Below, piece after piece: positions 5,888 through 56,219 of a stretch of DNA of 64,000 nt (positions are counted from its first letter, which is position 1; each line of letters begins with the position of its first letter). Origin of the DNA: Symbiodinium natans. Taxonomy: Eukaryota > Sar > Dinophyceae > Suessiales > Symbiodiniaceae. The notes beneath the pieces were generated by a model. That model did not search any database and had not been told where the DNA came from. It saw only the letters and a list, made by a program, of their open reading frames with translations. The stretch covers positions 111,001 through 175,000 of the forward strand of contig CAJNDS010002095.1 of NCBI GenBank assembly GCA_905221605.1, written 5' to 3'. The position numbers and the translations under genes are program-made.

Positions 5888-6001
5888 TAAACCCTAAACT
5901 CTAAACCCTAAACCCCTAAACCCCTAAACCCCTAAACCCTAAACCCTAAACCCTAAACCCTAAACCCTAAACCCTAAACCCTAAACCCTAAACCCTAAAC
6001 C
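5888..6001 (-). repeat. Telomere-like array (CCCTAAA)n
   Basis: Starts with CCCCTAAA octamers, then about 10 perfect CCCTAAA units. Confidence 0.95.
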
Positions 6002-6067
6002 ATGCTCAGGTCCTGCCCCGGACACCGGCGTGCATGTGCGCGCCCGAGCAGCAGTCAAGAACCAGGG

Positions 6068-53700: not shown

Positions 53701-55668
53701 AACCCTAAACCCTAAACCCTAAACCCTAAACCCTAAACCCTAAACCCTAAACCCCAAACCCTATAAACCCTAAACCGAAGTAAAACCTATGTAGGCCCTA
53801 AACCCCCAACCCGAAAAACACAGGAACAACCCTAAACCCTGAACCCTGAACCCTGAACCCTAAACCCTAAACCCTAGGGATATGGATAGAAGGGGAGCAT
53901 GGAGCATCCGGGGACAAATGTTGGCATTTCGTGAGGCTCCGGTGTCACCGTGTTTCAACTAGGGACCTTGATCTGGCTCTCAACCAATCTTGGTTTAGGC
54001 GTTGGGGTTTATGGCAATCGTGAGTGCAACTCTCAACCCTGAAATAATGTGCAACCAATGTTGCGCAAGGATCAGTCCAGAACCTGCACCCTTCACTTAA
54101 AACCCCAAACTCCTTGGTTCTGAAGTTGAGGCCCTCTAAACCCCCTAAACCCTCGAAACCTCCTAAACCGTAACCCTAAACCCTAAACCCTAAGCCCTAA
54201 ACCCTAAACGATTCTAAATTGGAAAGATGGGAGCCAGGTATCTCATAAGCCACGTTTTAGGATCTGCGTTCGAGGCGGTTGTTAGGGTTTACAGTTTAGG
54301 GATTCCAGAGAATTGCGGTGTCCCTAAACCCTGAACCCTAAACCCTAAATGCCTTCCTTTGCCTTGGGAGGGGCCTTCTAGGCCTACGGAGAAAGTGGGC
54401 TCCCAAAGAGCCCCAGCAGCCCAGCAGGGCGATGGTTCACCATGGGCAGCCTTTGCGCGCTCCATGCGGCGTTGCCGCACCGTGGCTGCCGGTAGGGTAT
54501 AGGGTTTAAGGTTTAGGGCTTAGGGCTTAGGGCTTAGGGCTTAGGGTTTAGGGTTTAGGGTTTAGGGTTTAGGGCTTAGGGTTTAGGGTTCCTGCACCTG
54601 GCCACGATGTGCCATCACGATACCATATTCTAAGCAAAATCACTTGCAAACGCCGATCGGCCTGTAGCAATGTCTGGATGCACACGGCAGTTTCAGTGAC
54701 GTCCCTGTCCGAAACTCCGTGGATATCAAGCGACGGGATATGTCCAAAGGCAGGCTTAAGCTCGAGCGCCCTTGAATCGCCTCCGGCGTACTCAGTAAAA
54801 GAGATAGCGGGCGGCCGCACAGCAGGTCTTGCCTTGGCCTTGGGCCGGTAGACAAGCAGGTTAGGCTCTGGCGAAGACTCCTCCGGCTCAACCCAAATCA
54901 CAGCTGGCGATGAACGCACAGCCGGTGGTGGAGTGCGGGCAAGAGAACGCTCCCTCGTCTCCCCCCAACACCGCCCGAACCCCGGCAACCCAAACTTGGG
55001 TTTAGGGTTTAGGGTTTAGGGTTTAGGGTTTAGGGTTTAGGGTTTAGGGTTTAGGGTTTAGGGTTTAGGGTTTAGGGTTTTGGGTTTTGGGTTTGGGGAT
55101 GTTCCCACCCATACGAACAGTCCTTAATGGGGATTATCATCGGGGGCAATATAATCCCAACTAGTGACTGATAGTGTAAGGGGGAGCATCCCAACCTCAA
55201 CCCCAGAACATGAAACCCGAGGCCTTGCCGACAACCCTGGCACGCTTCAGCCCTAAACCCCATAAAACTCCAAAATCTAAACCCTAAACCCTAAACCCTA
55301 AACCCTAAACCCTAAACCCTAAACCCTAAACCCTAAACCCTAAACCCTAAACCCTAAACCCTATATTATAAAACTCCAAAATCTAAACCCTAAACCTGAA
55401 CCAGCTCACAAGCCCAAGCCAATCCAAAGAACAGGCCTGAAATAGCCTTAGCTAGGCGTAAATATCCCTGAATAGCCTTAATTATGGGGAACCTAGGGGA
55501 GGTAGCCCTAAACCCTAAACCCTGAACTCTAAACCCTAAACCCTAAACCCTAAACCCCACATAGGAAAAAGGGGGGTAGTAGGGGAACCCCTGACTTAGT
55601 ACCTCGATGTCTTCCATCACCTTCACATCGTCCGAGTTCGAGCTGTCCTGCGTGGCGTTGTGGGTTTC
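50777..55668 (-). CDS. Gene model A, 5' and central exons
   Basis: Exons (start, spare): 55603-55668 (0,0; ETHNATQDSSNSDDVKVMED, donor GTACTAAG), 54598-54958 (0,1; 120 codons, including EPEESSPEPNLLVYRPKAKA and DRDVTETAVCIQTLLQADRR, donor GTGCAG), 54388-54485 (2,0; RQRRMERAKAAHGEPSPCWA, donor GTAGGC), 53634-53679 (0,1; ANIAPYWAALSEWWE, GC donor), 53110-53166 (2,1; ELLLCKSRMRATASETGF, donor GTAAGG), 53012-53052 (2,0; PKPNEKREWEEDQ, donor GTAAGC), 52789-52868 (0,2; LEHLAEEGVAAQWSLQKLRV). These seven join in phase. Further down are 52169-52228 (FKSSQMLTHVMCDHAARL), 51658-51711 (KKPFHNTEAFLGLDEELYQ, donor GTGAGC) and 50777-50840 (PHGIEARAASEELCDHRR, donor GTACCA). The first exon and start codon are not found. 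Acidic, charged, no recognised domain. Confidence 0.6.
50850..50970 (+). repeat. Telomere-like array (TTTAGGG)n
   Basis: About 17 perfect units, facing the preceding CCCTAAA array across a 64-bp exon. Confidence 0.95.
52474..52788 (-). CDS. Second strong reading frame overlapping a model A exon
   Basis: Immediately downstream of, and overlapping, the exon at 52789-52868, another frame reads NEDVFFKDPELANHMLDMGL, then DPTQAWTGDDEFDALLASLN, then AEALSGEIPIW before entering repeat. It can be opened from ATG at 52833. Either an exon in a new phase after a very short intron, or a frameshift, could explain two protein-like frames side by side. Confidence 0.4.
   Translation of the reverse strand, partial: VTVPGNEDVFFKDPELANHMLDMGLDPTQAWTGDDEFDALLASLNAEALSGEIPIWTDPKPTLSPIRPKPYIQPKPETCPRVHVLCHAQQLPKPLTLSRPPVFF
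52872..52973 (+). repeat. Telomere-like array (TTTAGGG)n
   Basis: About 14 perfect units directly upstream (coding sense) of the exon at 52789-52868. Confidence 0.95.
53423..53462 (+). repeat. Poly-T/poly-G homopolymer junction
   Basis: About 23 T followed by about 17 G, the same order as at 21.07 kb. Confidence 0.9.
54996..55082 (+). repeat. Telomere-like array (TTTAGGG)n
   Basis: About 12 perfect units between model A's large exon and a family 1 element. Confidence 0.95.
55091..55196. mobile_element. Family 1 MITE-like element
   Basis: Left end GTTTGGGGATGTTCCCACCC, right end GGGGGAGCATCCCAAC, with the conserved ACAGTCCTTAATGGGGATTA segment. Confidence 0.75.
55276..55363 (-). repeat. Telomere-like array (CCCTAAA)n
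   Basis: About 12 perfect units, bracketed by two copies of AAAACTCCAAAATCTAAACC. Confidence 0.95.
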
Positions 55669-56219
55669 CTTGTTTTGGCCTCAGCCCTGAACCCTAAACC
55701 CGAAACCCCTAAACCCTAAACCCTAAACCCTAAACCCTAAACCCTAAACCCTAAACCCTATAACCCTATAACCCTATAACCCTAAACCCTAAAGTCAAGA
55801 CTCTACCCTCTATGACTTATCTCGCCGTGCGGAACATGACCCATCTCTAGAAGACCCGAGGAAGTCCCACTCCCGGCTCACGGGGTCTATTTTTTAGAGT
55901 TTAAGGTTTAGGGTTTAGGGTTTAGGAAAAGGTGCGTCCAAAAAGCAAGGGTTTAAGCTTTGGGGTTCAGGGTTTAGGGTTTAGGGTTTAGGGTGTTCTG
56001 GGCACAGATTACAGACTGCGTACTACCAGCGCATATAATTACACTGAAGTGACATAATCTGTCCGCCCGATCATAATCCCAGTAGTACGTGTAGTCCGTG
56101 TAGTGGACGTCATAGCAGCCAAAGTACTATGTCGGCAGTCTTGCATGTATATCGGCAATGATGAAAAGGATTTATGGTAGTGTTGATAACCAGATAGTAT
56201 TAGAGAGAGAGAGATAGTC

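Follow-up and report, generated by a model that had tools for sequence, protein, structure and literature searches.

Interstitial telomere repeat makes up about a quarter of the sampled Symbiodinium natans genome and extends into predicted introns

Symbiodinium natans is a free-living marine alga in whose sampled genome arrays of the telomere unit TTTAGGG account for about a quarter of the sequence, in both orientations and in all states of decay. Here, a stretch of 64,000 bases of this genome (C1783:111001-175000, in the following termed the window) was analysed together with other loci. The window probably carries intron-rich and apparently lineage-specific gene sequence on its minus strand, set amid a genome-wide interstitial telomere repeat which would have been inserted at DNA breaks. 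Introns predicted for two conserved genes outside the window hold telomere arrays as well. The arrays consist of tandem copies, internal to chromosomes, of the unit that the literature gives for dinoflagellate telomeres and can hence be addressed as interstitial telomeric sequence (ITS).

Over positions 1-56000 of the window, short unique islands alternate with runs of (TTTAGGG)n or (CCCTAAA)n of all ages, including decayed forms, in both orientations. Using a mask that tolerates up to 3 mismatches per 14-mer, 40.9% of this part was found to be telomere-like, compared with 0.44% of a base-shuffled copy, which bears out the layout of islands between telomere repeat given in a preliminary description of this DNA. 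In the remaining positions 56001-64000, the repeat is almost absent. A search of the genome (759,417,921 bases in 2543 contigs) yielded 649,788 forward and 648,790 reverse matches to (TTTAGGG)5, overlapping matches being counted, versus 17 and 5 matches to the same pattern read backwards. Thus, the repeat is abundant genome-wide and not peculiar to the locus of the window. Systematic 4-kb samples, nine of ten of which were readable, were 0-46% telomere-like with a mean of 25% (22.5% if the single row consisting of N throughout, L033, is scored as zero), and three of these nine contained about 2% or less. For 12 loci obtained earlier from other contigs than that of the window, two of which had been fetched for containing the repeat, the mean was 21.5%. 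The overlapping loci L002-L007 were left out of the samples, and half of L009 and half of L022 consist of N. L012 was excluded from the purity count and from both flanking-duplication tests described below; this locus (C1783:1-10000) is a contig start of satellite-like character, GC-poor (43%) and about 1% telomere-like. At the ends of the arrays, a mild bias in register is observed.

Evidence for telomere arrays within introns comes from two genes. In locus L022 (C1900:50001-60000), a TTL-like peptide was first noticed in the list of open reading frames, and 14 exons distributed over 4.2 kb can be joined into 287 residues of a TTL-family protein by applying the dinoflagellate rule of GT, GC or GA donors and AG/G acceptors (the slash marking the splice point). 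The family assignment is based on Pfam PF03133, whose domain end was recognised in the last exon at 23.7 bits and which scores 51.1 bits with an early exon chain of 251 amino acids (cut-off 20.1). The 287-residue product aligns gap-free with protein P0004 of Effrenium voratum, with 247 of 287 positions (86%) being identical, and 42 of the 49 homologues found, nine of these 42 stemming from transcript collections, likewise align without gaps over all 287 residues. No exons encoding the part of TTL ahead of residue 227 were detected in L022; they may fall in its N stretch. Six of the donors are GC, four GT and three GA, while all 13 acceptors are AG/G. Telomere-like DNA occurs in 9 of the 13 predicted introns and covers 941 of 3326 intron bases (28%, or 36% with a loose mask), compared with 1 of 864 exon bases; the earlier suggestion that the repeat makes up most of the intron mass is therefore too strong for this gene. 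The second gene encodes the annotated S. natans protein P0051 (Ttll10), which matches contig C158 exon by exon. Once three consecutive introns, which are 60%, 39% and 0% telomere-like, are removed, the translation agrees with the annotated protein at 71 of 71 residues. Altogether, the 16 introns of both genes display nine GC, four GT and three GA donors and 16 AG/G acceptors, corresponding to the dinoflagellate spliceosomal type and consistent with the usage published for S. natans (donors GT 23.6%, GC 58% and GA 18.4%, acceptor AGG 97.1%; PMC10666404).

Both genes also bear on the question whether assembly put repeats in the wrong place or multiplied them. If longer arrays had been collapsed, this could explain why no mismatch-free array in 240 kb of examined sequence is longer than 143 bp, but exon order and phase are correct across arrays in the two genes, many arrays have decayed each in its own way and the published assembly includes long reads (PMC8045281), so that an artefact of this kind is hardly credible. 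As a side observation, a hairpin repeat (CTTGGAGGTTCATGG..) adjoins a telomere array roughly 100 bp long in intron 3 of the L022 gene, suggesting that introns accumulating arrays gather hairpin elements as well. The locus next to this intron-rich gene, L026 (C1900:60001-70000, minus strand), contains what we take, on reading the peptide by eye, to be a photolyase/cryptochrome-like gene, for which few introns are modelled. Loci poor in telomere repeat seem to be intron-poor.

Within the window itself, the islands bear a coding signal which is stronger on the minus strand, in line with the protein-like frames described previously. Scored with a codon model that had been trained on the TTL exons of L022 (288 of about 1540 training codons) and on three long open frames of S. 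natans not proven to be genes, the minus strand reaches 138.9 and the plus strand 98.2, whereas 15 island-shuffled nulls gave a mean of 50.4 (sd 6.6, maximum 60.4). Applied to L022 as positive control, the same model separates the strands at 61.6 versus 28.8, a result that is partly circular because the TTL chain belongs to the training set. The elevated score of the plus strand may be due to an antisense shadow or to low-complexity frames. A codon model derived from the copia element of the window had shown no strand difference (317.3 versus 317.5) and was replaced by the TTL-trained one. Additional support comes from two minus-strand islands, 36424-36356 and 36027-35966, which lie about 330 bases apart and whose peptides, VTLKSERDFSISMADE and VSLMSERDINISLTDE, are related to one another (E 4e-4 within the window). 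The first of these putative exons (36356-36424, VTLKSERDFSISMADERYRKASW) is bordered by the acceptor CAG/G and the donor /GTCTTT, with degenerate telomere repeat starting about 10 nt past the donor, and the second (35966-36027, VSLMSERDINISLTDELHAD) is its paralogue. Over 16 codons, 16 base mismatches are distributed as 4/3/9 over the codon positions 1/2/3, and this excess at third positions (9 of 16) is a mark of selection on protein. Minus-strand exons in the window are hence judged likely from the sequence.

Other features which had been put forward in favour of genes in the window proved less informative. The AG, GT and GC edges reported for the islands do not distinguish the strands; CAG, for example, is present at 40 of 150 CCCTAAA-flanked 5' edges on the minus and 37 of 145 on the plus strand; moreover, GT and AG at the edges are uninformative because telomere repeats supply both themselves. 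Likewise, the reported agreement of successive islands in codon phase was not reproduced: among exons called in a phase-blind manner (score of at least 6), 6 of 26 minus-strand and 4 of 10 plus-strand pairs of neighbours share their phase, i.e., about one third, in a test that is powerless, since neighbours in the proven gene of L022 agree at only 2 of 8. The proposed presence of five or more adjacent genes was not confirmed, as neither the count of genes nor their boundaries can be read from the sequence. The modelled introns of the window are 55% and 41% telomere-like and the modelled exons 0-0.7%, the low exon share being partly built in as the model penalises coding in repeat.

Alternatively, the window might be non-genic, i.e., repeat-rich DNA in which the arrays lie between dead fragments such as decayed exons and pseudogene pieces. 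Several search results can be read in this way. Among the best 8000 candidates by shared words, the only homologues of window exons (three matches) were obtained for the minus-strand fragment 15679-15996, which comprises 106 codons and is 62-75% identical to the dinoflagellate protein family P0001-P0003, and the flanking sequence of this family was not found beside it. The family is conserved in dinoflagellates with its function unassigned, and the piece may be either a captured exon or a pseudogene. No homologue was found among the same number of candidates for the top-scoring candidate exon of the window at 54613-54953 (minus strand, ERSLARTPPPAVRSS..IWYRD; score 22.6 for 54953-54606), which lies in an open frame of 148 codons and contains no Pfam domain, nor, at E<=10, for a chain of putative beta-repeats among 5314 candidates. 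A search of solved structures with the window exons gave none at E<=10. Pfam, which was applied to the minus strand of 28-56 kb and to exon chains (to chains only in 1-28 kb, and to the copia element only on the plus strand), detected no domain in that minus-strand interval and, copia apart, none in a set of five window exon chains or in a window chain scanned separately; two weak matches below cut-off both originate from fetched loci outside the window. Furthermore, 48,427 putative pseudogenes have been listed for S. natans in a published screen (PMC8045281). On the other hand, dead fragments would account neither for a coding signal far above that of the shuffles and stronger on one strand nor for a pair of exons differing mainly at third positions. 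A non-genic window is accordingly considered possible, albeit somewhat unlikely.

How the arrays arrived in the genome was approached through the sequences flanking them. Flanking direct repeats reach 8 nt or more at 45 of 693 telomere blocks, compared with 9.6 in re-paired controls; for at least 10 nt the count is 25 (mean 1.3, maximum 3 in 10 re-pairings), and for at least 13 nt it is 13, with 0.1 expected. Words close to the telomere unit were excluded from the counted repeats, while the list of cases retains some of them as well as at least three blocks of a tandem repeat in L015. Looser flank tests were dropped due to contamination by telomere-like words. Direct repeats of at least 10 nt that hug the block were found at 17 blocks (0.9 expected), corresponding to 3.0% of pure, 2.6% of middling and 1.7% of decayed arrays, numbers too small for a trend. 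Two examples from the window are the array at 26531-26661 with a 10-nt target-site duplication (GGCAGCAACC; copies at 26531-26540 and 26652-26661) and the array at 32092-32182 with a 13-nt duplication (TTCGAAGGCATTT; copies at 32092-32104 and 32170-32182), while in L029 a 22-nt duplication encloses 26 bases of telomere repeat. Overall, the direct target duplications are 8-22 nt long and accompany a minority of the arrays, and it is for this minority that clean insertion into unique DNA, as in ITS formed by break repair, is observed. The duplications suggest insertion at staggered breaks with subsequent decay. Expansion in situ, with short telomere-like seeds lengthening through slippage and no insertion taking place, would fit the heptad purity of the arrays, which ranges continuously from about 40% to more than 90%, but leaves the flanking duplications unaccounted for, as well as the random orientation of neighbouring arrays (291 of 612 alike), and is thus rated very unlikely.

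A further possibility is that transposons, either miniature inverted-repeat transposable elements (MITEs) or non-long-terminal-repeat elements, carried the telomere repeats along. Duplications of variable length also accompany integration of the long interspersed nuclear element type, the DNA around the arrays is rich in MITE-like repeats, and three blocks lie between inverted repeats of 11-17 nt where 0.3 are expected. Inverted repeats of at least 8 nt, however, are not enriched around the blocks (10 of 693; control mean 7.9, maximum 13), so that terminal inverted repeats, as known from introners and MITEs, are not a property of the telomere arrays as a class. Moreover, a non-telomeric body shared beside arrays was not seen, and in the cleanest cases telomere repeat alone is enclosed by the duplications. 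A transposon origin is therefore regarded as unlikely.

In the favoured scenario of break-associated insertion, staggered double-strand breaks would be filled by telomerase or by captured telomeric DNA, and fill-in would duplicate the overhang, giving rise to the flanking direct repeats. Insertions into exons would be purged, while those in introns and intergenic DNA would persist and decay by mutation into the present spectrum of ages. Arrays located in introns would be removed together with the rest of the intron by dinoflagellate splicing using GT/GC/GA donors and AG/G acceptors. The filling may be done by telomerase, by the capture of telomere ends or by a reverse transcriptase. Several observations weigh against this interpretation or narrow it. 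Tight duplications of at least 10 nt are found at only about 2-3% of the arrays, and of the 17 tight cases at least two belong to the L015 tandem repeat and about five contain telomere-like words. The 143-bp ceiling on perfect arrays may have a biological cause or stem from the assembly. The gene evidence comes from two genes, each of the TTL type, L022 having been picked via a TTL-like exon in a fetched locus and Ttll10 from among the L022 homologues; their introns were called from genome sequence, homologue alignment and annotation, and 4 of the 13 L022 introns and 1 of the 3 Ttll10 introns are devoid of telomere-like DNA. The core of the preliminary description, telomere repeat within introns, is supported by 9 of 13 introns in L022 and 2 of 3 in Ttll10, both outside the window, whereas for the window itself the searches yielded no homologue reaching across a telomere array.

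It is conceivable, although doubtful, that telomere insertion is also a source of new introns in S. natans. If a staggered break hit AG/G with T, C or A as the next base, the overhang, once duplicated, would provide a GT, GC or GA donor on one side and an AG/G acceptor on the other, and a bare telomere array would become a removable intron at once. The motif AGG[T/C/A] is present in 3 of 10 listed duplications, and intron 2 of the TTL gene in L022 has TGCGAG/GC at both borders, its interior including non-telomeric sequence. Both observations are suggestive only with regard to intron creation.

Besides the exons discussed above, the minus strand of the window harbours further candidates. The one at 52622-52847 (RGCPMEPTEAASS..SGEIPI) attains a score of 14.7. 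A possible beta-repeat gene includes a candidate exon at 38980-39055 (FDASSLGAEYSTPG..; score 6.0 for 39055-38996), and other candidates are located at 38249-38292 (VTVRIDASQWSHLE, from the exon model), at 37800-37907 (..SLKAVKGANIAKLSVNGEFEAPVGSFTKPC, frame uncertain, with the exon model using another frame), at 37085-37147 (VNFSAISAELGVDVAQTAKAC, the model ending at 37091), at 32402-32476 (..DDTTMGEITFTGALGADQT, from the exon model) and at 31331-31417 (GAFSKEYRANGDIAVKGNVKLTGRAPTAA; score 6.9 for 31417-31364). Scans for tRNA genes and against Rfam gave no matches. At least two MITE-like families are dispersed in this DNA, with members at 19829-19906, 30301-30378 and 31648-31788 of the window and copies in L010, L014 and L018. 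The copies at 19829-19906 and 30301-30378 are on the same strand and identical in 78 of 78 bases, and a relative is found near 16266-16382.

The telomere-rich part of the window is adjoined by the open reading frame of a Ty1/copia polyprotein on the plus strand (56670-62687, 2005 codons; RVT_2 E 2.1e-29), with a long (TTG)n run at about 56215-56460 just upstream of it. This reading frame contains the tetranucleotide ACTT 160 times, compared with 20.7 expected from base composition and with a mean of 56 (maximum 73) under 300 synonymous-codon shuffles. The excess is one-stranded (AAGT 21), involves all three frames (53/49/58) and is evenly spaced, with a gap variation of 0.39 versus 0.87 after shuffling and a mean gap of about 36, and it persists past the stop codon (40 ACTT in 1.3 kb, AAGT 0). 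In the other fetched loci, every 2-kb stretch held fewer than 30 copies. In L013, a 123-bp tandem repeat at 1394-2549 lies within an open frame of 484 codons on the minus strand, and the encoded GDGSVVTWG repeats are presumably RCC1-like, as judged by eye.

Interstitial telomere repeat as such is known from vertebrates, plants and other organisms, where repaired breaks have been found to contain short insertions, in some cases along with changes of the target. The arrays of S. natans resemble these ITS in being internal to chromosomes, but differ in a load of about one quarter of the sampled genome, in being mostly short and dispersed, and in their presence in predicted introns of both genes examined. 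Introners of dinoflagellates (Polarella, Amoebophrya and others) are likewise dispersed in introns and show direct repeats at the intron ends (PMC7789003, PMC11453091). Unlike the S. natans arrays, which consist of telomere repeat and are not generally enriched for inverted repeats, introners carry inverted repeats or family sequence and make introns. In another member of the Suessiales, Polarella glacialis, (TTG)n is reported as 19% of the genome (PMC7245778), which again is a simple repeat of about a fifth of the genome, yet a trinucleotide and not the telomere unit. The unit (TTTAGGG)n itself has been reported at dinoflagellate chromosome ends (PMC11453091, PMC11508785); the S. natans arrays share this unit but sit internally, and large-scale internal copies are not mentioned in the accessible portions of these reports. 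Within the parts of the open-access literature covered, no report was found that describes dispersed telomere repeat across the genome or in the introns of a dinoflagellate. Accordingly, interstitial telomere repeat is known, while its scale and intronic location as seen here were found nowhere described in that literature.

Interstitial telomere repeat is usually taken as a scar or as the mark of a fusion, while in S. natans it is a main component of the genome and, as far as predicted, of introns. Since the arrays bear marks of insertion and differ in age, the entry of telomeric DNA into chromosomes as well as the possible seeding of introns become testable, and so does the handling by the spliceosome of UUUAGGG-rich pre-mRNA, whose repeats could form G-quadruplexes. 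The finding would also bear on gene prediction in genomes of this kind. If relatives share the trait, it would affect work on coral symbionts in which the repeat serves as a chromosome-end marker, i.e., measurements of telomere length and telomere fluorescence in situ hybridization. Finally, if intron creation by telomere insertion should prove true, telomere maintenance would be an engine of intron making and genome expansion.

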